Assembly: GCA_016788885.1 (NCBI GenBank)
Contig: JAEURX010000005.1
Location: 1-63,542 of the forward strand
Direction of reading: 5' to 3'
DNA length: 63,542 nucleotides
Source of the DNA: Nitrospira sp.
GTDB taxonomy: Bacteria; Nitrospirota; Nitrospiria; Nitrospirales; Nitrospiraceae
In this document: positions 14,704 through 63,532 of the stretch, piece after piece
Layout of the letters: each line of letters starts with the position of its first letter
How positions within the stretch are numbered: position 1 is the stretch's first letter
Notes under the pieces: generated by a model
Seen by the model: only the letters and a program-made list of their open reading frames with translations
Databases searched by the model: none
What the model was told of the DNA's origin: nothing
Translations under genes and position numbers: made by a program

Positions 14704-15348
14704 TTACACTTGGGTCAGGCTGGTCGGATGTGGTTTGGCGGGTGCCCCCTTCGGTCCGTCAGGCGGACCGTCCTTCAGCATGGTCACGACCAAGCCGATT
14801 TTCAGCACCAGCAGCCCGACTCCGACCCAGACGACGTAGGGCTGTACGCCACCCAATTCTCCCAACATCTGTTGTTTGCTCTCGTCGGCTCCGGCCCGCT
14901 GCCCTTTGATCTTGGCGAGTTGTTCCTTCGCGTGCCAGAAGTAGATGTAGTTGGCGCTGGCTCCCGCAATGATCCGCCAGACGATGTCGGCCGAGAGATC
15001 TTGCGTGATGTAGAACGCCATGGCGGGTCCGATGGCATAGATGAGCGCGTAGCCGTACATTTTCCGGTACAGGAACCAGAGAAACGGCTCGAAGACGAAG
15101 GCCGGCCAGTGCCAGGTCAGCGCGAATTGTGGACCGGAGGGGCCCGAAAACTTCTTGAACGTTTCGAGGTAGCGATCGGCGTTCGGGCCGATGAAGGCTT
15201 TCCACAGTTCCGTGTCCGTCAGGGGGCCGCTAGGCTGCTCCGGTTCAAGGACGGTCTCTCGGGGTTCGACGGTGAACGCTCCCCCGCATTGGTGACAAAA
15301 GCGGGCGTCGTCCCGGTTTTCTTGTCGGCACTGTGCGCAGGATTTCAT
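14704..15348 (-). CDS. Zinc-ribbon DUF2628-like membrane protein
   Basis: 214 residues. The N-terminus MKSCAQCRQENRDDARFCHQ has Cys at 4, 7, 18 and 21, a zinc-ribbon. Residues 55-140 match DUF2628: FALTWHWPAFVFEPFLWFLY, then a membrane segment YALIYAIGPAMAFYI, and NYIYFWHAKEQLAKIKGQ, where this family typically has a YxxHV/AxxxI motif. A second membrane helix VVWVGVGLLVLKIGLVVTML sits near the C-terminus. No function is established. It diverges from argD, whose start is 171 bases away. Confidence 0.75.
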   Translation of the reverse strand: MKSCAQCRQENRDDARFCHQCGGAFTVEPRETVLEPEQPSGPLTDTELWKAFIGPNADRYLETFKKFSGPSGPQFALTWHWPAFVFEPFLWFLYRKMYGYALIYAIGPAMAFYITQDLSADIVWRIIAGASANYIYFWHAKEQLAKIKGQRAGADESKQQMLGELGGVQPYVVWVGVGLLVLKIGLVVTMLKDGPPDGPKGAPAKPHPTSLTQV

Positions 15349-15518
15349 ACCGCCACCTTATCCCATCCGCCGTCTCTTCCCGTCAAGGGACACCTCCCGT
15401 GGAACGCCTCTGTCCAAACCGACGACCGCCGCGCCAGGAGCCGCGACAGGCGGTGGTTCGGTTGCTTTCACCTGGTTCGTATGATAGCTTCGCCGACTCA
15501 CGATGGGAGAGGTGTGCC

Positions 15519-16724
15519 ATGCCGACGGGCGAGTTGCGTCTCAATGCCGATCAGTACCTGATGAATACCTATACGCGCCAGCCGATTTCGATCGTGCGCG
15601 GGCGCGGGACGAAGGTCTATGACCTGGAGGGCCGGGAGTATATCGATTTCGTGGCCGGCATTGCGGTCAATGTGCTCGGGCATGGACATCCGGATCTCGT
15701 GTTGGCCATCCAAAAGCAGGCGCAGCACCTGATTCATACCTCGAACCTCTATTATACCGAGCCGCAAGTACGCCTGGCGCAGATGCTGGTGGAGCATTCG
15801 TTCGCGCAAAAGGTCTTTTTCTGCAACAGCGGCGCGGAAGCGAACGAAGCGGCCATCAAGCTGGCCCGCAAGTACTCCTACGACAAATACGGCGCTGATC
15901 GGTATGAGATCGTCACGATGACGAGTTCCTTTCACGGCCGCACGCTCGCCACGCTGACAGCCACAGGCCAGGACAAGGTCCACAAGGGATTTGCTCCGTT
16001 GATGCCGGGCTTTTCCTATGTGCCCTTCAATGATCTGCCGGCGGTCGAACGGGCCATCACACCCAAGACGGCTGCGGTCATGTTGGAACCGATTCAGGCT
16101 GAGGGCGGAGTCCATGTCGCCGATCGCGGCTATATGCAAGGCCTGCGGGAATTGTGTCGTGAACGGGACGTGCTGCTGATTTTCGACGAGGTGCAAACCG
16201 GCATCGGACGGACCGGGACCCTCTTCGGGTATGAACAGTTCGGGATGCAGCCCGACATCATGACGCTGGCCAAGGGGCTCGGCGGCGGCGTGCCGATCGG
16301 CGCCTGCCTGGCCACCGACAGTGTCGCTCGCGCCTTTGGCCCGGGAACGCATGCCTCGACATTCGGTGGCAACCCGCTGGCCTGTGCCGCGGCGCTGGCG
16401 GTGCTCCGCGTATTGTTGGAAGGGAAGATTCTCGATCAGGGGCGTCGGATGGGCGAGTGCCTGGCCAAGGGGCTGGCCACCTTGAAAGAGCGGCATCGCT
16501 GCGTCAAAGAGGTGCGGGGGCTCGGCTTGCTGCAAGGTATGGAGTTGGAGATTGACGGAAAAGCCGTCGTCGCCGACTGTCTGACGCGCGGGCTGCTGAT
16601 CAACTGCGTCGGCGATCGGGTCTTGCGCTTCGTGCCCTCGCTCATCATCACAGAGCGCGAAATTGATCGTCTGCTGGCCGCGCTGTCACAGATTTTTAGT
16701 CAACGAACCACCTCAACCCATTAA
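15519..16724 (+). CDS. argD: Acetylornithine aminotransferase
   Basis: 401 residues from ATG 15519, with GGGAGAGG 6 bases upstream. A class III PLP aminotransferase that makes N-acetylornithine from N-acetylglutamate 5-semialdehyde; many also serve as succinyl-DAP aminotransferase. Seen: CNSGAEANEAAIKLARKY, SSFHGRTLATLTATGQ, LLIFDEVQTGIGRTG (PLP-ring Asp) and the Schiff-base Lys in TLAKGLGGGVPIGA. First gene of the arg-lys cluster; argF starts 17 bases after its stop. With dapL present in the window, a DAP role is unlikely to be needed. Confidence 0.95.
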   Translation: MPTGELRLNADQYLMNTYTRQPISIVRGRGTKVYDLEGREYIDFVAGIAVNVLGHGHPDLVLAIQKQAQHLIHTSNLYYTEPQVRLAQMLVEHSFAQKVFFCNSGAEANEAAIKLARKYSYDKYGADRYEIVTMTSSFHGRTLATLTATGQDKVHKGFAPLMPGFSYVPFNDLPAVERAITPKTAAVMLEPIQAEGGVHVADRGYMQGLRELCRERDVLLIFDEVQTGIGRTGTLFGYEQFGMQPDIMTLAKGLGGGVPIGACLATDSVARAFGPGTHASTFGGNPLACAAALAVLRVLLEGKILDQGRRMGECLAKGLATLKERHRCVKEVRGLGLLQGMELEIDGKAVVADCLTRGLLINCVGDRVLRFVPSLIITEREIDRLLAALSQIFSQRTTSTH

Positions 16725-16740
16725 GCGAGTAGGGGCGCGT

Positions 16741-17724
16741 ATGTCGCGGCGTCCTCGTCGGTCGACTACCCGGGCTGGTCTCGGGAAAGATTTTCTGGAT
16801 TTGCTTTCGATCCCTGCGGAAGAGCTGAAGGGATTATTGCGGCTCGCTGCGCAGCTGAAAGCGAAGCAACGTCGCGGCGTCCCTCATCCCCTCTTGCCTG
16901 GGCGTATGTTGGGCCTGCTGTTCCAGAAGCCGTCGACCCGGACCCGTGTCTCGTTCGAGGCCGGAATGAATCAACTCGGCGGCCAAGCCATGGTGCTGCC
17001 GATGGGCGACATTCAGTTGTCCCGCGGGGAAACAGTGGCGGATACGGCGCATGTGTTGTCGCGCTACCTGGATGCCATCGTCCTGCGGACCTTCGACCAC
17101 GCCATCGCCGAGGAGTGGGCACGGGAGGCCAGCATTCCGATCATCAACGGCCTCACCGATCTGAATCATCCCTGCCAGGCCTTGTCCGACTTGCTGACCA
17201 TTCAGGAAAGAAAACGGCGCTTGAAGGGTATCAAGATCGCGTATGTCGGTGACGGCAACAATGTGACGAATTCGCTCATTGAGGCTGCGGCCAAGACCGG
17301 CATGACGATTGCCGTGGGCTGTCCGCCTGGGTATCAGCCGGATCGACGCATCGTGGATTTGGCTCGAGTCGAGGCGCAGCAGACCGGTGCCACAATCGAA
17401 ATCGGCGCCGACCCCTGCGTCGCGGTGAAAGACGCCGATGTGGTCTACACCGATGTCTGGATCAGTATGGGGCAGGAGCGAGAGCAAGCCAAGCGGCTGA
17501 AGATCCTGGCACCGTACCAGCTCAATGCGCGATTGCTGAAGTACGCGAAGCCGGATGCCTTGGTGATGCATTGCCTGCCAGCGCATCGTGGTGAAGAAAT
17601 CAGTGCTGAGGTGTTGGATGGGCCGCAGTCTGTCGTGTTCGATCAGGCGGAGAACCGATTGCACATGCAGAAAGCGATTCTGGTCAGGCTCCTCGGAAAG
17701 AAATCGCAGACACGTCGTCAGTAA
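16741..17724 (+). CDS. argF: Ornithine carbamoyltransferase
   Basis: 327 residues from ATG 16741. It joins ornithine and carbamoyl phosphate to give citrulline. The carbamoyl-phosphate loop [19 protein letters not shown], the ornithine-site [12 protein letters not shown], and the catalytic [12 protein letters not shown] are intact, so this is OTCase and not the N-acetylornithine type. An Arg-rich N-terminal extension of about 20 residues ([13 protein letters not shown]) precedes the conserved [11 protein letters not shown]. It is 11 bases upstream of argG. Confidence 0.95.
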
Positions 17725-17735
17725 AAAGGAGTGGT

Positions 17736-18953
17736 ATGAGCCGGTCATCGTACAAACAAGTCGTCTTGGCCTATTCGGGCGGGCTGGACACCTCGGTCAT
17801 TTTGAAGTGGCTGGAAGAGGTGTACGGCTGCGAGGTGGTGGCATTTTGCGCGGATCTCGGACAGGGCGAAGATCTCAAGGCCATCAAGAAAAAAGCGCAG
17901 TCCCTGGGCGTCAGGAAAGTCTACGTCGAAGACCTCCGCGATGTGTTTGTGAAGGACCACGTGTTCCCCATGTTGCGTGGCAACGCGCTGTATGAAGGCA
18001 GTTACTTGCTGGGGACTTCGATCGCCAGGCCCTTGATCGCACGTCGCCAAATCGAGATCGCCGCCAAGGAAGGGGCCGAGGCGGTGTGTCACGGCGCGAC
18101 CGGGAAAGGCAACGACCAGGTACGGTTCGAATTGACCTACATGGCGCTGCACCCGCAGATCAAGATTATTGCGCCCTGGCGGGAGTGGTCCATGCGTTCG
18201 CGCCGGGAGTTGATCGAATATGCGGAGAAGCATGGCATTCCGGTGACGGCAACGAAAGCGAAGCCCTACAGCATGGACATGAACTTGTTTCACACGAGTT
18301 ACGAGGGCGGCATTCTTGAAGATCCATGGCAAGCGCCGCCGGAAGAGATTTTCGTCATGTCGGTGTCGCCTGAGCGGGCCCCGGCCAAGGCGCGGGAAGT
18401 GGAGATCGACTATGTCGCCGGTGACCCGGTCGCAGTGGATGGAAAAAAGATGAAGCCGGCTGCCTTGCTGGCCCATCTCAATACTCTGGGTGGCGAGCAC
18501 GGAGTTGGCCGGGTCGATCTGGTGGAAAACCGCTACGTGGGCATGAAGTCTCGCGGCGTGTATGAGACGCCGGGTGGTACGATTCTGCATGCGGCGCATC
18601 GCGGCCTGGAGTCTCTAACGATGGACCGGGAAGTGCTGCACTTGCGGGACAGCTTGATCCCACGCTATGCGGAACTCATTTACTACGGATATTGGTACGC
18701 GCCTGAACGTGAAATGCTGCAGGTGGCGCTGGATGAAGCCCAAAAGGATGTCACCGGGACTGTGCGGGTGAAGCTCTACAAGGGGAACTGCACGGTGGTC
18801 GGACGGAAGTCTCCGCGTTCCTTGTATCGCCTGGACATGGCGACCTTCGAAGAAGACGACGTGTATCGGCAAAAAGACGCGGAAGGGTTCATTCGTCTGA
18901 ACGCGTTGCGATTGGCCATTCGCGCGCAGCGTCAGAAGAGGGCGAGCCGGTAA
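17736..18953 (+). CDS. argG: Argininosuccinate synthase
   Basis: 405 residues. The ATP pyrophosphatase loop [16 protein letters not shown], the citrulline-site segment [20 protein letters not shown] and [16 protein letters not shown] are as in type I enzymes. It condenses citrulline and aspartate with ATP. AAAAGGAG precedes the ATG. The stop overlaps the argH start by one base (TAATG), so the two last steps of arginine synthesis are coupled. Confidence 0.96.
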
Positions 18954-20407
18954 TGGCGAAATCTAAGTCTGCCGGCTCTCGGGTGCGCAAGTCCGCTCGC
19001 CCACCGTCACGCTCGGCGCGAGCGTTGCCCAAAGGCAAGGCCTGGGGTGGCCGGTTCGCCGAACAAACCGACCGGCTTGTGGAGCAGTTCACCACGTCAT
19101 TGGCTTATGATCGACGCCTCTACCCCTACGACATTCAGGGGAGCATCGCACACTGCCGGACGCTTGAACGGGCAGGGGTGTTGACGGCACGGGAGTCCGC
19201 ACAGCTTGTGCGCGGGCTGCAACTTGTCAAAGTGGAATTGGATGGCGGACGATTCCCCTTCTCTCCCCAAGACGAAGACATTCATATGGCGATCGAGCGT
19301 CGGCTGACCGAGCTGATCGGGCCGCTTGGGGGAAAGCTCCATACGGGGCGAAGCCGCAACGATCAGGTCGCCTTGGACTTGCGCCTCTTCTTACGCGATG
19401 TCTTGTCGCGCGTCATGGGACAGGTTCACGAGTTCCGGCGAGTGCTGGTGGGGCAGGCGCGGGCGCATGTCGATGTGGTAATGCCGGGGTATACGCATTT
19501 GCAGCGAGCGCAGCCCGTCTTGATGGCGCATCACTTCCTGGCTTATGCCGAAATGCTCGACCGGGATGGGGGGCGACTGCGTGATTGTCGGACCAGGTTG
19601 AATGTCATGCCGCTGGGATCCGGCGCACTTGCCGGCTCGAACTATCCCGTTGACCGTCGATACACGGCCTCGCTATTGGAATTTCCCTCGGTGACGCAAA
19701 ATAGTCTCGACGCCGTCTCGGATCGCGATGCGGTCGTTGAGGTGCTCGGTGCATTCTCTGTGATCATGATGCACCTGTCGCGGTTGAGTGAGGAGTTGAT
19801 TCTCTGGGCGTCGCAGGAGTTTCGGTATGTGGATTTGCCGGATACGTTCTGCACTGGGAGCAGCATGATGCCGCAAAAGAAGAATCCCGATGTGCCGGAG
19901 CTGGTGCGCGGCAAGACGGGGCGAGTGTACGGCCATCTCATGGGGACGCTGACACTGCTCAAGGGGTTGCCCCTCAGCTACAATCGCGATCTGCAAGAAG
20001 ACAAGGAAGCATTGTTCGATGCCGTGGACACGACGGAACAATCGTTGATGCTCTGCACGGAACTGATGCGACGGCTCGTTGTGAACACGAAGGTACTGGC
20101 CGAGGCTGCTGAGGGCGGTGGCATGCTAGCGACGGAGCTGGCCGACTATCTGGTGACCAAAGGGGTTCCCTTCCGGGAAGCCCATTCCATTACCGGACAG
20201 ATTGTGCGATTCTCACTGGAGCAGCAGCGTCCACTGCAACAACTCACCGTGCAGGACTTGCAAGGATTTTCGCCTCGCTTCGGCAAGGATGTGTTGCACT
20301 GCCTGACGGTTCGGGGTGCGATCGACCGGAAGGATCAGATCGGCGGGACGGCGCGGCGTCGGGTGGAAGCGAGGATCAAGGAGCTTGAAAAGGCGCTGAA
20401 GGGATGA
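18953..20407 (+). CDS. argH: Argininosuccinate lyase
   Basis: 484 residues, longer than the usual 455-470 because of a basic N-terminal extension rich in Lys, Arg and Ser (about 27 residues) before KAWGGRFAEQTDRLVEQFT. It cleaves argininosuccinate to arginine and fumarate. The fumarase/aspartase signature GSSMMPQKKNPDVPELVRG and the TGRSRNDQVALDLRLF region are intact. The extension is unusual and has no known role. The start overlaps the argG stop, and the downstream lipoprotein start overlaps this stop (ATGA). Confidence 0.96.
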   Translation: MAKSKSAGSRVRKSARPPSRSARALPKGKAWGGRFAEQTDRLVEQFTTSLAYDRRLYPYDIQGSIAHCRTLERAGVLTARESAQLVRGLQLVKVELDGGRFPFSPQDEDIHMAIERRLTELIGPLGGKLHTGRSRNDQVALDLRLFLRDVLSRVMGQVHEFRRVLVGQARAHVDVVMPGYTHLQRAQPVLMAHHFLAYAEMLDRDGGRLRDCRTRLNVMPLGSGALAGSNYPVDRRYTASLLEFPSVTQNSLDAVSDRDAVVEVLGAFSVIMMHLSRLSEELILWASQEFRYVDLPDTFCTGSSMMPQKKNPDVPELVRGKTGRVYGHLMGTLTLLKGLPLSYNRDLQEDKEALFDAVDTTEQSLMLCTELMRRLVVNTKVLAEAAEGGGMLATELADYLVTKGVPFREAHSITGQIVRFSLEQQRPLQQLTVQDLQGFSPRFGKDVLHCLTVRGAIDRKDQIGGTARRRVEARIKELEKALKG

Positions 20408-57112: not shown

Positions 57113-57214
57113 GATCCTGCGTCATTCCTTCCTGCAGATGGTAAAATCGACTGTGTGAGGACCTGAATCCCTCGTGTGTCCTTCCCGGGGCGCTGCGACT
57201 CAGAGAGGTCGACC

Positions 57215-58459
57215 ATGACCCCATCCGAAGAAACCGTCTTCCTGCAGGGCCACATCATCGACTCCCTGATCCTGGCCAAGGTCCTGGATACGATTGTGAT
57301 GATGGGGGGCACGTTCGATCTTCAGGACGTCAAGATCGGCGCGACTAGGGAGGCGCCGTCGCAGGCCCGCATCGTCATACGCGCCCCTTCCGGCCGTAGC
57401 CTCTCGGAAATCCTACGGGCTATCCAGCCCCACGGGGCTGCATTGGAACGTGAAGCAGATTGCCGGTTCGAATCCGCCCCCGCCGCAGGCATTCTTCCGG
57501 ACGAGTTTTATGCCACGACCCATATGCCCACGCAGATTCGCCTGGACGGCGAATGGGTGGAGGTGGAGGGCATGGAGATGGATGTCGCGATTTGTGTCGA
57601 TCCGGCGAAATCTCGAGCCTGGACCGTCCCCATGGGAGCCGTGAAGCCGGGCGACTTGATTGTTACCGGGAGAGACGGCATCAGGGTGACGCCGCTTGCT
57701 CGTCCCGCCGTGCGCGATGTGTTTGGCTTCATGGAATCCGTGGTGTCGTCGGAGCGTCCGCATCAGCCCGTTATTGCGGATATTGCGCAACGCATGCAGA
57801 CACTGCGCGAACGACACCGCCAGGGACATCCGGGGGCGAAGGTGCTCTGTGCCGGAGGGCCGGCGATCGTCCATGCCGGAGGCCGTGACGCGCTGACGTG
57901 GTTGATCGACGCCGAGTACATTCATGTGTTGTTCTGTGGCAATGCGCTGGCCGCGCACGATATGGAAGCGACGCTGTACGGGACGTCGCTCGGGTACGGA
58001 CTGACAGCGGGGCGGTCGGTGCCGCACGGGCACGAGCATCATCTCCGAACGATCAATCGTATTCGTGCCATCGGCGGGATCGAACAGGCCGTGCGTTCCG
58101 GTGTGGTGACGGAAGGCATCATGGCCGCCTGTGTGCGGCGCAACGTCAAACTGGTGTTGGCCGGAACGATTCGCGATGACGGGCCGCTGCCTGGCGTGCT
58201 GACGGACTCCATGCAAGCCCAGCAAGCCATGCGTGAGGAAGTTCAGGGCGTCGGGCTCGCGTTGCTCGTGGCCTCCACGCTGCATGCCATTGCGACCGGC
58301 AATCTGCTGCCGGCCACGGTCCCGACGGTCTGTGTCGATGTGAATCCATCGGTGCCGACGAAACTCGCCGACCGAGGTAGTTTTCAGGCCGTCGGCCTCG
58401 TCATGGACGCCGCGTCCTTTCTGAAGGAACTGGCCCGCACTCTGGGGTGGCGCCCATGA
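57215..58459 (+). CDS. TIGR00300/LOR-SDH-type protein, putative ornithine cyclodeaminase
   Basis: 414 residues from ATG 57215, GAGAGG 6 bases upstream. The N-terminal part (HIIDSLILAKVLDTIVMMGG; GATREAPSQARIVIRAP) and the C-terminal NAD-binding-like part (AGGPAIVHAGGRDALTWLID; GYGLTAGRSVPHGHEHHLRT; GNLLPATVPTVCVDVNPS) match the LOR/SDH or TIGR00300 family. The archaeal member converts ornithine to proline with NAD+; the same domain forms the C-terminal part of cyanobacterial ArgZ/AgrE. The family assignment is firm; the activity is inferred. The stop overlaps the next gene's ATG by 4 bases. Confidence 0.85.
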   Translation: MTPSEETVFLQGHIIDSLILAKVLDTIVMMGGTFDLQDVKIGATREAPSQARIVIRAPSGRSLSEILRAIQPHGAALEREADCRFESAPAAGILPDEFYATTHMPTQIRLDGEWVEVEGMEMDVAICVDPAKSRAWTVPMGAVKPGDLIVTGRDGIRVTPLARPAVRDVFGFMESVVSSERPHQPVIADIAQRMQTLRERHRQGHPGAKVLCAGGPAIVHAGGRDALTWLIDAEYIHVLFCGNALAAHDMEATLYGTSLGYGLTAGRSVPHGHEHHLRTINRIRAIGGIEQAVRSGVVTEGIMAACVRRNVKLVLAGTIRDDGPLPGVLTDSMQAQQAMREEVQGVGLALLVASTLHAIATGNLLPATVPTVCVDVNPSVPTKLADRGSFQAVGLVMDAASFLKELARTLGWRP

Positions 58460-59256
58460 GTCGGCTTCTGGTGTGTTCCCCGGAGTATTTCCAGATCGAC
58501 TACGAGATCAATCCTTGGATGCGGCGGACGAACGCGGTAGTGCCCTCACGCGCAGTCAGTCAATGGCAGGCATTGATGCACGTGCTCGAGCGGGATGTCG
58601 GCGCGGGGATTGAACGCATGCCGCCGGTTGAGGGACTGCCGGACTTGGTGTTTACGGCGAATGCCGGCGTGGTGGTCGGTCGCCGCGCCTTAGTGAGTCG
58701 GTTCCGTTTTCCGGAGCGGCAACGAGAGGAGATGTATTTCGAACGATGGTTTCGTGCGCAGGGCTTCGATGTTCTGACGTTGGACAAGACCAGTTACTTC
58801 GAAGGGGCGGGCGATCTGTTGGGATTTCCGGATACATGGTTCGGCGGGTATCGCCAGCGAACAGATATCCGTTCCTTTCCCACATTGAGTGAACTGTTCC
58901 GGCGTGAAATTATTCCGCTGGAACTCATCGACGGTCGCTTTTACCATCTCGATACCTGCTTCTGTCCACTCACCGGCGGAGAGCTGCTCTATTTCCCCGC
59001 GGCCTTCGATGCCTACGGGCTGGCCGCCATCATGGAGCGGATTCCGGAGGAGCGCCGGATTCCCGTGCCCGAGGAGGAAGCGATTCGGTTTGCCTGCAAT
59101 GCCGTGAGTGTCGGCAAGCATGTGGTCATCCCCGCCGGCTGTCCCCGTACGATGCAGATCCTTCGCGACCGTGGCTATCGTACGCATGCCGTGGAGTTGG
59201 ACGAATTTATGAAGTCGGGCGGCGCTGCCAAGTGCCTGACGCTCGCCTTGGATTGA
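58456..59256 (+). CDS. Arginine dihydrolase-like protein (ArgZ/AgrE N-domain)
   Basis: 266 residues from ATG 58456. Guanidino-group-modifying fold: DLVFTANAGVVVG (Asn69), FEGAGDLLGFPDTW (Glu116, Asp120), RFYHLDTCFCPLTGGELLYF (His164), and a C-terminal Cys260 in GGAAKCLTLALD. The position of Asn69 and Cys260 fits cyanobacterial ArgZ (Asn71 and Cys264, recalled from published work), an enzyme that converts arginine to ornithine, two ammonia and CO2. The C-terminal LOR/SDH part of ArgZ is here a separate gene upstream. Alternatives such as dimethylarginine hydrolase cannot be fully ruled out. Confidence 0.85.
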   Translation: MSRLLVCSPEYFQIDYEINPWMRRTNAVVPSRAVSQWQALMHVLERDVGAGIERMPPVEGLPDLVFTANAGVVVGRRALVSRFRFPERQREEMYFERWFRAQGFDVLTLDKTSYFEGAGDLLGFPDTWFGGYRQRTDIRSFPTLSELFRREIIPLELIDGRFYHLDTCFCPLTGGELLYFPAAFDAYGLAAIMERIPEERRIPVPEEEAIRFACNAVSVGKHVVIPAGCPRTMQILRDRGYRTHAVELDEFMKSGGAAKCLTLALD

Positions 59257-59763: not shown

Positions 59764-60789
59764 ATGAAACGCTCATCGATGATGCGGGTGACTGTGGTTG
59801 GCGCCGGAGCATGGGGCACGGCACTGGCCAAGCATCTGGCTGAAAAGCAGTTGGCGGTGAGCCTGTGGGCCCATGAGCCGGAGGTGGTGCACAGCATTGC
59901 GCAGCAGCGTGAAAACGCGCTCTATCTTCCCGGTGTGCGGCTTCCCGCCACGTTGACGGCTACCAACGGCTTGTCCGAGGCGCTGACCCAAACTGATTGT
60001 GTGCTGTTTGCCGTGCCTTCGCATGTGGCGCGACCCGTGCTGGGCCGGATCGGACCGTTGTTGCCGGAGTCCGTCCCCTTCGTCAGCGCCACCAAGGGCA
60101 TCGAGGAGATAACGTTCGACCTGATGACGCAGGTGATGCAGGACACGCTGCCGTCCCATCTGCGGGATTCCCTGATGGTCCTGTCGGGGCCGAGCTTCGC
60201 CAGCGAAGTCAGTCAGGGAAAACCAACTGCGCTCTGTTTGGCCGGCCGGGACCACGGCCTGGTGAAAACCATTCAGGCGCTCTTCATAACGCCGAGTTTT
60301 CGGGTCTATGCCGATGATGATCTGATCGGAGTCCAATTGGGCGGGGCGTTGAAGAACGTCATGGCGCTGGCCGCCGGCGTGGTCGACGGGCTTGAACTCG
60401 GACATAACGCCCGTGCCGCCTTGATTACCCGCGGACTGGCGGAAATGATTCGGCTTGGCGTGGCCATGGGCGCGGACCCGCGAACGTTTTACGGACTCTC
60501 CGGGGTCGGGGATCTCATTCTGACCTGTACGGGACCCTTGAGTCGCAACCACTCCGTCGGTGTGCGGCTGGGCAGGGGTGAACGCCTGGAGGGGATTCTC
60601 GCGAGTATGCAAGCGGTCGCCGAGGGGGTGCGAACGGCCAAGGCCGCGTTGGGATTGGCGCAGCGGTGCGGCGTGGACATGCCGATTGTGCAGGAGGTGA
60701 ATGCCGTGCTCTTTGCCGACAAGTCTTGTCGTCGGGCGGTCGGTGACCTGATGGAACGCGAGGCCAAGGGAGAGAAAACACCGTCATGA
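59764..60789 (+). CDS. gpsA: Glycerol-3-phosphate dehydrogenase [NAD(P)+]
   Basis: 341 residues. Reduces dihydroxyacetone phosphate to glycerol 3-phosphate for phospholipids. VTVVGAGAWGTALAKHLAEK, KGIEEITFDLM, VLSGPSFASEVSQGKPTALC, LGGALKNVMALAAGVVDGLE and LGHNARAALITRGLAEMIRL plus GLSGVGDLILTCTGPLSRN are intact. A likely start is at 59764, though ATG 59779 or 59782 would give a shorter leader. The stop and the larB ATG overlap (ATGA). Confidence 0.96.
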   Translation: MKRSSMMRVTVVGAGAWGTALAKHLAEKQLAVSLWAHEPEVVHSIAQQRENALYLPGVRLPATLTATNGLSEALTQTDCVLFAVPSHVARPVLGRIGPLLPESVPFVSATKGIEEITFDLMTQVMQDTLPSHLRDSLMVLSGPSFASEVSQGKPTALCLAGRDHGLVKTIQALFITPSFRVYADDDLIGVQLGGALKNVMALAAGVVDGLELGHNARAALITRGLAEMIRLGVAMGADPRTFYGLSGVGDLILTCTGPLSRNHSVGVRLGRGERLEGILASMQAVAEGVRTAKAALGLAQRCGVDMPIVQEVNAVLFADKSCRRAVGDLMEREAKGEKTPS

Positions 60790-61547
60790 ATCCAGACCAG
60801 TTACGGGCCTTGCTGACGAACGTGCAGCAAGGCACCCTTGCGGTGCCCGAGGCCCTCAAGCAATTGCGCACCCTGCCGTATGAAAATCTGGGCTTCGCCT
60901 CGCTCGATCACCATCGAGCGCTTCGTCAGGGATTTCCGGAGGTCATTTTTTGCGAGGGGAAGACGGTCGCCCAGGTCGTGGCCATTGCCAAGACTCTGCT
61001 GCGGAAGAACAAGGCCTTGCTGGCGACGCGGGTGGAGCCGTCCGTTGCCAAGGCCCTGGTGCGCCTCAGCAAGCGGGCCACCTATCACGACGATGCGCGC
61101 GTAGTGGCGATCGCGCCGCCCAAGCTGGTCCGTCGAGGCTCAGTGCTCATTGTCACCGCAGGAACGGCCGATATTCCCGTTGCCGAAGAGGCACGCGTGA
61201 CGGCCGATATCATGGGAAGCAAGACCGACACCTTGTACGATGTGGGAGTCGCCGGGTTACATCGGTTGCTCGGTCAGCAGGAACGGTTGCACGGTGCGCG
61301 GGTACTGGTTGTGGCGGCCGGCATGGACGGCGTGTTGCCGAGCGTGGTCGGCGGGTTAGTGCGGCAGCCTGTGATTGCGGTGCCGACAAGCCGTGGTTAT
61401 GGGGCGCATTTCGGGGGCTTGGCTGCGTTGTTGACGATGTTGAATTCTTGTGCGGCCGGGGTCGGGGTGATGAATATCGACAACGGCTTTGGCGCCGGGT
61501 GCCTGGCGCACCGCATCAACATGGTGGGGGAGACGGATACGAAGTAG
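60786..61547 (+). CDS. larB: LarB, pyridinium-3,5-biscarboxylate mononucleotide synthase
   Basis: 253 residues, start overlapping gpsA. LarB carboxylates nicotinic acid adenine dinucleotide and removes AMP in the first step of the nickel-pincer cofactor. The NAIR-carboxylase-like core is clear: VTAGTADIPVAEEARVTADI, DTLYDVGVAGLHRLLGQQER, VVAAGMDGVLPSVVGGLVRQ and PTSRGYGAHFGGLAALLTML, ending in NIDNGFGAGCLAHRI. An N-terminal FASLDHHRALRQGFPEVIFC is also LarB-like. A hallmark of organisms that make the Lar cofactor; a racemase LarA is not in the window. Confidence 0.93.
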   Translation: MNPDQLRALLTNVQQGTLAVPEALKQLRTLPYENLGFASLDHHRALRQGFPEVIFCEGKTVAQVVAIAKTLLRKNKALLATRVEPSVAKALVRLSKRATYHDDARVVAIAPPKLVRRGSVLIVTAGTADIPVAEEARVTADIMGSKTDTLYDVGVAGLHRLLGQQERLHGARVLVVAAGMDGVLPSVVGGLVRQPVIAVPTSRGYGAHFGGLAALLTMLNSCAAGVGVMNIDNGFGAGCLAHRINMVGETDTK

Positions 61548-62161: not shown

Positions 62162-62323
62162 GGGCCTCGGTATCGCAGGCAATGTTCGGCGGAGTACGTC
62201 TCTTTGATTGGGGATAACACAGCATCGCAGGGCTGTCAATGAACGAGCGGAATGATTGCTGTCTGGGTGCGGCTCCGGTAAGATGCCGCTCGTTTGCGCG
62301 GCATCCAGAATCGTAGGAGTGAC

Positions 62324-63532
62324 GTGGCCAGGCATCTTCATTTCGACTGTTTTTCCGGTATCAGCGGCGACATGACGTTGGGCGCGCTGGTTGATGTGGG
62401 GTTGCCATTCAAGGATCTCGTGCGCGGACTCACCTCGTTGAGGATCGATGGCTTCCGGCTGGCGCGAAAGAGAGTCGAGCGCGGAGCCATCAGCGCGACG
62501 AAAGTCGATGTGCTGATCGACAAGGGCTTTCGCACGCCGTTAACTCTGTCACAAATTGCCAAAATTCTTCGGAAGAGCGGCCTGCCGCCAGTGGTCAAAG
62601 AACGGAGTCAGGCGGTATTCGATGTCCTAGCTGATGCCGAAGGGAAAGCTCACGGGGTCGAGCCGTCGCACGTGCATTTCCATGAAGTGGGCGTGATCGA
62701 TTCATTTGTCGATGTCGTCGGCGGGGTCCTCGGCCTGCACCTCCTCGACATTCAACGTGTGACGGCCTCCGCTGTCAATGTCGGTTCCGGCATGCTTCAG
62801 TCGGCTCATGGTGCCTTGCCTGTGCCGGGACCAGCCGTGGCGGCCTTGGCGGTCGGCGTGCCGATTTATGCCAAGGGGCCTGAGCGAGAGCTGACAACGC
62901 CGACGGGGATGGCGTTGTTGCGGACCTTGGCGACTGATTTCGAGTGTCTCCCACCCATGCAGGTTCGTCGGGTGGGCTATGGAGCAGGGACCGCCGACCC
63001 GGCGCAATGGGCCAATGTGCTGCGTGTGTTCATCGGCGACGCGCCAGCCTCGGGCGTCGCGGTGGAAACGATTGTCGAACTGCACACCAACCTCGACGAT
63101 CTCAATCCGCAAGTGTATGAGACGGTATTCGAACGTCTCTTTGCCGCCGGGGCTGTGGATGCGACATTGGCGCCGGTGACCATGAAGAAAGGACGGCCAG
63201 GGACTGTCCTGTCCGTGCTGGCTCCGCGAGAACAGGTCGAGGCGGTGTTGGCGGTGTTGTTCTCCGACACCACGGCGCTGGGCGTTCGGACGCAGGACGT
63301 CCAACGGCGGGTGCTGCCGCGACGCTTTGCGTCGGTCCAGGTTCAAGGGGGTGACGTGCGGATCAAAGTGGCGGATCATCAACCGGGGCGGAGCAAGGCG
63401 GCTCCGGAGTATGACGACTGCAAACGCATTGCCGAACAGAGCGGCAGGCCGGTAAAGGACATTTTAGAGGAGGCCATGCTGGCGTTCCGGCGCACGCAGG
63501 CCGGAACGAAACGGACGACGAAACGCGCATGA
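62324..63532 (+). CDS. larC: LarC, nickel insertion enzyme for the pincer cofactor
   Basis: 402 residues from the GTG at 62324 (AGGAG 4 bases upstream). HFDCFSGISGDMTLGALVDV, HVHFHEVGVIDSFVDVVGG, the N-terminal metal-site His cluster, LTTPTGMALLRTLATDF and ELHTNLDDLNPQVYETVFER, then TMKKGRPGTVLSVLA are LarC marks. LarC uses CTP and Ni to finish the cofactor. In Lactiplantibacillus it needs a programmed frameshift between two parts; here it is one continuous frame. The stop overlaps the ATG of a further gene at the window edge. Confidence 0.93.
   Translation: MARHLHFDCFSGISGDMTLGALVDVGLPFKDLVRGLTSLRIDGFRLARKRVERGAISATKVDVLIDKGFRTPLTLSQIAKILRKSGLPPVVKERSQAVFDVLADAEGKAHGVEPSHVHFHEVGVIDSFVDVVGGVLGLHLLDIQRVTASAVNVGSGMLQSAHGALPVPGPAVAALAVGVPIYAKGPERELTTPTGMALLRTLATDFECLPPMQVRRVGYGAGTADPAQWANVLRVFIGDAPASGVAVETIVELHTNLDDLNPQVYETVFERLFAAGAVDATLAPVTMKKGRPGTVLSVLAPREQVEAVLAVLFSDTTALGVRTQDVQRRVLPRRFASVQVQGGDVRIKVADHQPGRSKAAPEYDDCKRIAEQSGRPVKDILEEAMLAFRRTQAGTKRTTKRA

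Follow-up and report, generated by a model that had tools for sequence, protein, structure and literature searches.

A pair of overlapping genes on a Nitrospira contig raises the question of whether the arginine breakdown pathway of the cyanobacterial bifunctional protein ArgZ/AgrE also exists as two separate proteins and, if so, which cofactor serves the second of them. The window analysed here, 63,542 nucleotides long, is one entire contig of a 3.92-Mb Nitrospira genome (99.8% complete, 75-contig assembly). The features that the argument needs are the following:

15333..20407, + strand: argD-argF-argG-argH, arginine biosynthesis (NCBIfam matches over cut-off)
57215..58459, + strand: ornithine cyclodeaminase (OCD), TIGR00300, LOR/SDH-type, 414 aa (profile search, Pfam regions, structure model)
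58456..59256, + strand: predicted stand-alone arginine dihydrolase, ArgZ N-domain type, 266 aa (profile search, conserved residues)
58456..58459, + strand: ATGA overlap, dihydrolase start codon and OCD stop codon (sequence)
59764..60789, + strand: GpsA, glycerol-3-phosphate dehydrogenase, between the pair and larB (profile search; conserved neighbour)
60786..61547, + strand: LarB, nickel-pincer nucleotide (NPN) biosynthesis (NF033503, 285 bits, cut-off 175)
62294..63532, + strand: LarC, NPN biosynthesis (nickel insertion), TTG start uncertain (TIGR00299, 193.5 bits, cut-off 90; NF052512, 140 bits, cut-off 50; PF01969)

As the original prediction had described, two open reading frames of 414 and 266 aa have an ATGA in common, and the whole argD-F-G-H set is found in the same window. 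This set lies about 37 kb upstream of the pair. The OCD gene starts at ATG 57215 with a Shine-Dalgarno-like AGAGAGG just upstream, and an alternative longer GTG start exists at 57176. The gpsA and larB genes share an ATGA overlap as well; GpsA is probably outside the arginine pathway.

By family identity, the 414-aa protein is a full-length OCD of family TIGR00300. The profile search gave 458.6 bits (curated equivalog cut-off 410.8) and covered model positions 5-403 of 407, and the three Pfam regions of the C-terminal part of ArgZ (PF04455, PF21571 and PF21570) are all present. NCBIfam release 20 (2026) names this family 'ornithine cyclodeaminase, nickel-pincer nucleotide-dependent'. The AlphaFold2 model (pLDDT 84.5) matched the archaeal structure 3c2q at Z 42 (rmsd 2.2, 325 residues); ArgZ and AgrE were matched at Z 33-37 with a large rmsd, which indicates that the domains are placed differently. 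Residues 165-413 of the model match NAD+-dependent deoxyhypusine synthases (Z 17-18). As a separate observation, a 355-aa protein of the GSU2086 family (G000:C71, L191:952-2016, minus strand; 443 bits), which appears to be of deoxyhypusine synthase type and occurs widely in the phylum, has a weak local match to the Rossmann part of the OCD.

For the 266-aa protein, the best family was arginine dihydrolase (Arg_dihydro, NF052232) with 291 bits, a score far above chance, as is that of its partner against TIGR00300, but below the curated cut-off of 450. Each of 12 cyanobacterial genomes reached that cut-off, and no Nitrospira genome tested did so. The Mtb-type DDAH model ('ddaH', NF045659) came second with 232.6 bits (cut-off 300), and DDAH_eukar was the sole Pfam match over cut-off. 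These two matches would speak for a dimethylarginine hydrolase, or for an arginine deiminase yielding citrulline, unrelated to the OCD step. We regard such an identity as very improbable: the arginine dihydrolase family scores highest, the coupling to an OCD is deeply conserved (see below), and identity is 44-48% (about 46%) to ArgZ N-domains, 44% to ArgZ itself, versus 19-22% to solved DDAHs. Among solved structures Synechocystis ArgZ comes closest (E 2e-72), and the structure model (pLDDT 84.8) has a TM-score of 0.91 to ArgZ N-domains.

The residues point the same way. The prediction that the dihydrolase part keeps Asn69, His164 and Cys260 proved correct, all three being present and aligned with the ArgZ residues N71, H168 and C264, two of which were replaced in engineered Synechocystis ArgZ variants (N71S in entry 6juz, C264S in 6jv1). 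All 15 conserved or active-site columns compared are identical between the 266-aa protein and ArgZ-type sequences, the same 15 residues occurring in each of the 46 split-type and 45 cyanobacterial (fused) sequences included. Asn69 lies in TANAG, and the corresponding context in E. coli AstB, also a dihydrolase, is VANAA; in contrast, an Asp occupies the ArgZ Asn71 position in Burkholderia DDAH (VED) and in DDAH/ADI-like relatives from Bacillus and Legionella (TRD, IKD). From these comparisons, together with published background, we infer that the Asn would decide dihydrolase chemistry. The Mtb-type ddaH proteins also have this Asn, and dihydrolase activity is possible for them too, which speaks against the DDAH reading. 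Clustering with dimethylarginine hydrolases, considered in the original prediction as a contrary outcome, was not found, since the Asn is kept and the arginine dihydrolase family ranks first. Family scores, residues and folds agree that the two separate proteins correspond to the dihydrolase and OCD parts of ArgZ/AgrE, and the suggested conversion of arginine into ornithine plus two ammonia, and then proline, is the likely chemistry as judged from family and residues.

The gene arrangement is not a peculiarity of this genome. An OCD gene followed by a dihydrolase gene was found in 24 of the 24 Nitrospirota loci examined (22/22 in Nitrospiraceae and 2/2 in a second family belonging to the same order), and a four-base overlap in 18 of 22 Nitrospira-type loci of another collection (gene ends extrapolated). 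The reverse order and overlap are thus real and kept across Nitrospiraceae, the order also in the second family. Against three relatives, dN/dS is about 0.06-0.09 for both genes, synonymous change exceeding non-synonymous change more than tenfold. Cyanobacterial loci are fused with the dihydrolase first, and no such dihydrolase was found in the examined flanks of archaeal, Chloroflexota and Acidobacteriota OCD loci. An apparent OCD loss in one genome that keeps LarC (G105) was discarded, because the contig ends about 450 bases past gpsA and the gap is an assembly edge.

As a statement about history, however, the idea of a split ArgZ is probably wrong. In the OCD tree, where the closest sequence is that of a N. 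defluvii NOB1 MAG (92% identical), the Nitrospirota join Chloroflexota and Acidobacteriota (support 98/95), apart from cyanobacteria. Fission of a cyanobacterial ArgZ is disfavoured by this tree: forcing the Nitrospirota OCD together with cyanobacteria gave a p-AU of 0.0265, so that this grouping is rejected with moderate strength in a tree that has long branches. The tree of the dihydrolase does not separate the branching of Nitrospirota, cyanobacteria and actinobacteria and so does not decide on origin. The simplest reading is a separate assembly of the pair, not its excision from ArgZ.

We therefore propose, with a probability of roughly 0.75, that the pair forms a two-gene arginine-breakdown module, with an OCD that most likely uses NPN and with PutA acting next; its activities, cofactor and flux direction are predicted from the comparisons given here. 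Briefly, by analogy with ArgZ, Cys260 of the 266-aa protein would attack the guanidinium carbon and two hydrolyses would yield ornithine, CO2 and two NH3. The 414-aa protein would then convert ornithine into proline and one more NH3 by internal hydride transfer. Its bound cofactor would derive from nicotinate and is most likely NPN, made by LarB, LarE and LarC, with NAD+ as the alternative. Finally, PutA would convert proline into glutamate. The net effect would be the release of arginine nitrogen, and some ornithine may re-enter argF-G-H.

The genome encodes a bifunctional PutA (991 aa, both domains) and two full-length proC genes, neither of which figured in the original prediction; their presence fits the route from arginine through ornithine and proline to glutamate rather than proline supply; such a route via AgrE has been described for Anabaena (PMC8262935). 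Among 41 Nitrospiraceae genomes, OCD and PutA tended to occur together: both were present in 32, both missing in 5, most of which are incomplete, and discordant in 4 (one truncated OCD counted as present). A pair working mainly in proline synthesis, or in an ornithine-ammonia cycle back to argF-G-H instead of net arginine breakdown, is rather unlikely in view of the two proC genes and the bifunctional PutA, although argD-F-G-H is complete in the window and archaeal OCD genomes without a dihydrolase imply another job for the OCD there, for example proline making. An ornithine-ammonia cycle is kept as a putative, possible addition. The two proC genes rule out the OCD as sole proline source and make proline supply, one of the roles first suggested, unlikely as the main one. 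The other, use of stored arginine in a nitrifier, found no support: the search of 41 family genomes for a cyanophycin synthetase gave none over cut-off, only partial ligase-like matches, and cyanophycin was dropped as the arginine store.

The original prediction had overlooked LarB and LarC just downstream of the pair and LarE elsewhere in the genome (contig C25, 316 bits). This LarE (L189:4453-5322) has cysteines in CYHC and AACLSSR, a pattern presumably similar to that of the Thermotoga LarE, which is of the [4Fe-4S] type. LarA (PF09861), the usual NPN enzyme, had no match in this 75-contig assembly. Since 5 of 5 sampled genus-mates have it, a gap in the assembly may be the reason. Across the family Nitrospiraceae, LarC was found in 23 of 23 sampled genomes and LarA was without match in 17 of these. 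LarC occurs in 24/24 Nitrospirota genomes with an OCD over cut-off versus 52/94 without (Fisher p 7e-6, kinship ignored). In a set of 26 OCD-bearing genomes drawn from several phyla, LarC was present in 22, including 12/12 cyanobacteria and 6/7 archaea. Most cyanobacteria and archaea with an OCD have LarC while LarA is mostly missing. About 15% of genomes, many cyanobacteria included, have LarB/C/E without LarA, and the cofactor user was called 'yet-to-be-identified' (PMC11796402); the later NCBIfam name for TIGR00300 suggests that an answer has since come into existence. In the collection of papers searched, none had both OCD and NPN as terms.

The same two reactions could also be carried out by an OCD using bound NAD+, the Lar genes serving another protein and their adjacency being chance synteny. 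Indeed, the AgrE crystal structure 6lrg is a ternary complex with ornithine and NAD+, and the OCD fold is like that of the NAD+-dependent deoxyhypusine synthases. Moreover, many Nitrospirota (G002-G116; families f4, f5, f7, f8 and others) have LarC without TIGR00300 or LarA, so that at least one other NPN user must exist there. In the second family gpsA-larB-larC sit away from the OCD/dihydrolase pair, which also favours this alternative. In addition, minus-strand genes separate the pair block from the gpsA-larB-larC block, and unrelated neighbours are equally conserved. At the loci examined, no LarB, LarC or LarE gene lay within 8 kb of an OCD outside Nitrospiraceae, and a wider LarB/LarC-OCD linkage was abandoned for this reason; the larB-larC adjacency is best taken as a single lineage-specific event and is, on its own, weak evidence for a link to the OCD. 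Three Chloroflexota MAGs with an OCD (L102, L103 and L117; G137-G139) had no LarC match, yet have LarA-type genes; either the model misses a strongly diverged LarC, or these organisms make NPN in another way. We nevertheless think use of NAD+ unlikely, given the 2026 NCBIfam naming, the strong co-occurrence of OCD and LarC, and the presence of LarC without LarA in most OCD-bearing cyanobacteria and archaea. The Nitrospira cyclodeaminase is thus probably NPN-using.

Judged by sequence comparison, Nitrospira has a genuine variant of the known ArgZ/AgrE pathway, conserved and encoded by two genes, and not a new kind of system. It extends this pathway from cyanobacteria to a major nitrite-oxidising group, in a two-gene form seemingly assembled separately, and makes the OCD a candidate NPN user for organisms that make NPN without LarA, the gap stated in PMC11796402, although to judge from the 2026 naming others are already filling it. 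With separate proteins, each half can be assayed alone and ornithine channelling can be tested. The finding should be useful to specialists in nickel cofactors and nitrifiers. It is possible, although we put it forward only tentatively, that the OCD is the main NPN user in Nitrospiraceae, that the pair was assembled independently of cyanobacterial ArgZ, that a complex of the two proteins passes ornithine on and that nickel limits arginine-nitrogen turnover in nitrite oxidisers, all four together.

Several known systems share parts of this arrangement. The N-succinylarginine dihydrolase AstB of E. coli has an Asn where DDAH and ADI have an Asp, as in the 266-aa protein, and performs a double hydrolysis to CO2 and two NH3, but it is 447 aa long, acts on succinylarginine and has little overall similarity to it. 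The archaeal stand-alone OCD (TIGR00300; M. maripaludis 3c2q) is likewise full-length, 44-49% identical and accompanied by LarC in most genomes; it differs in that a search of seven archaeal genomes gave no dihydrolase partner. In the actinobacterial 'ddaH'-rocD pairs (Mtb Rv2323c; NF045659), an ArgZ-like protein with the same Asn adjoins an ornithine-using enzyme, and in M. ulcerans the two genes overlap by four bases, as in Nitrospira; there, however, ornithine goes to an aminotransferase and not to an OCD, and the first protein is annotated as dimethylargininase. Growth on arginine requires Rv2323c (PMC4569260). The 'dimethylargininase' proteins on five actinobacterial plasmid records (L069, L070, L179, L180 and L181; NF045659) have the dihydrolase Asn (AANG, SANA) and not the DDAH Asp. 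They may be arginine dihydrolases misnamed as DDAH. Closest is the cyanobacterial ArgZ/AgrE (Synechocystis Sll1336, Anabaena Alr4995; NF052231). NF052231 describes one bifunctional polypeptide, dihydrolase then OCD, and the window pair falls outside it: Nitrospira has two genes with an ATGA overlap and the OCD first, and its OCD is about 39% identical to that of ArgZ/AgrE and groups with Chloroflexota/Acidobacteriota OCDs. Both domains, the checked dihydrolase residues, the expected reactions and the PutA follow-up are common to the two systems.
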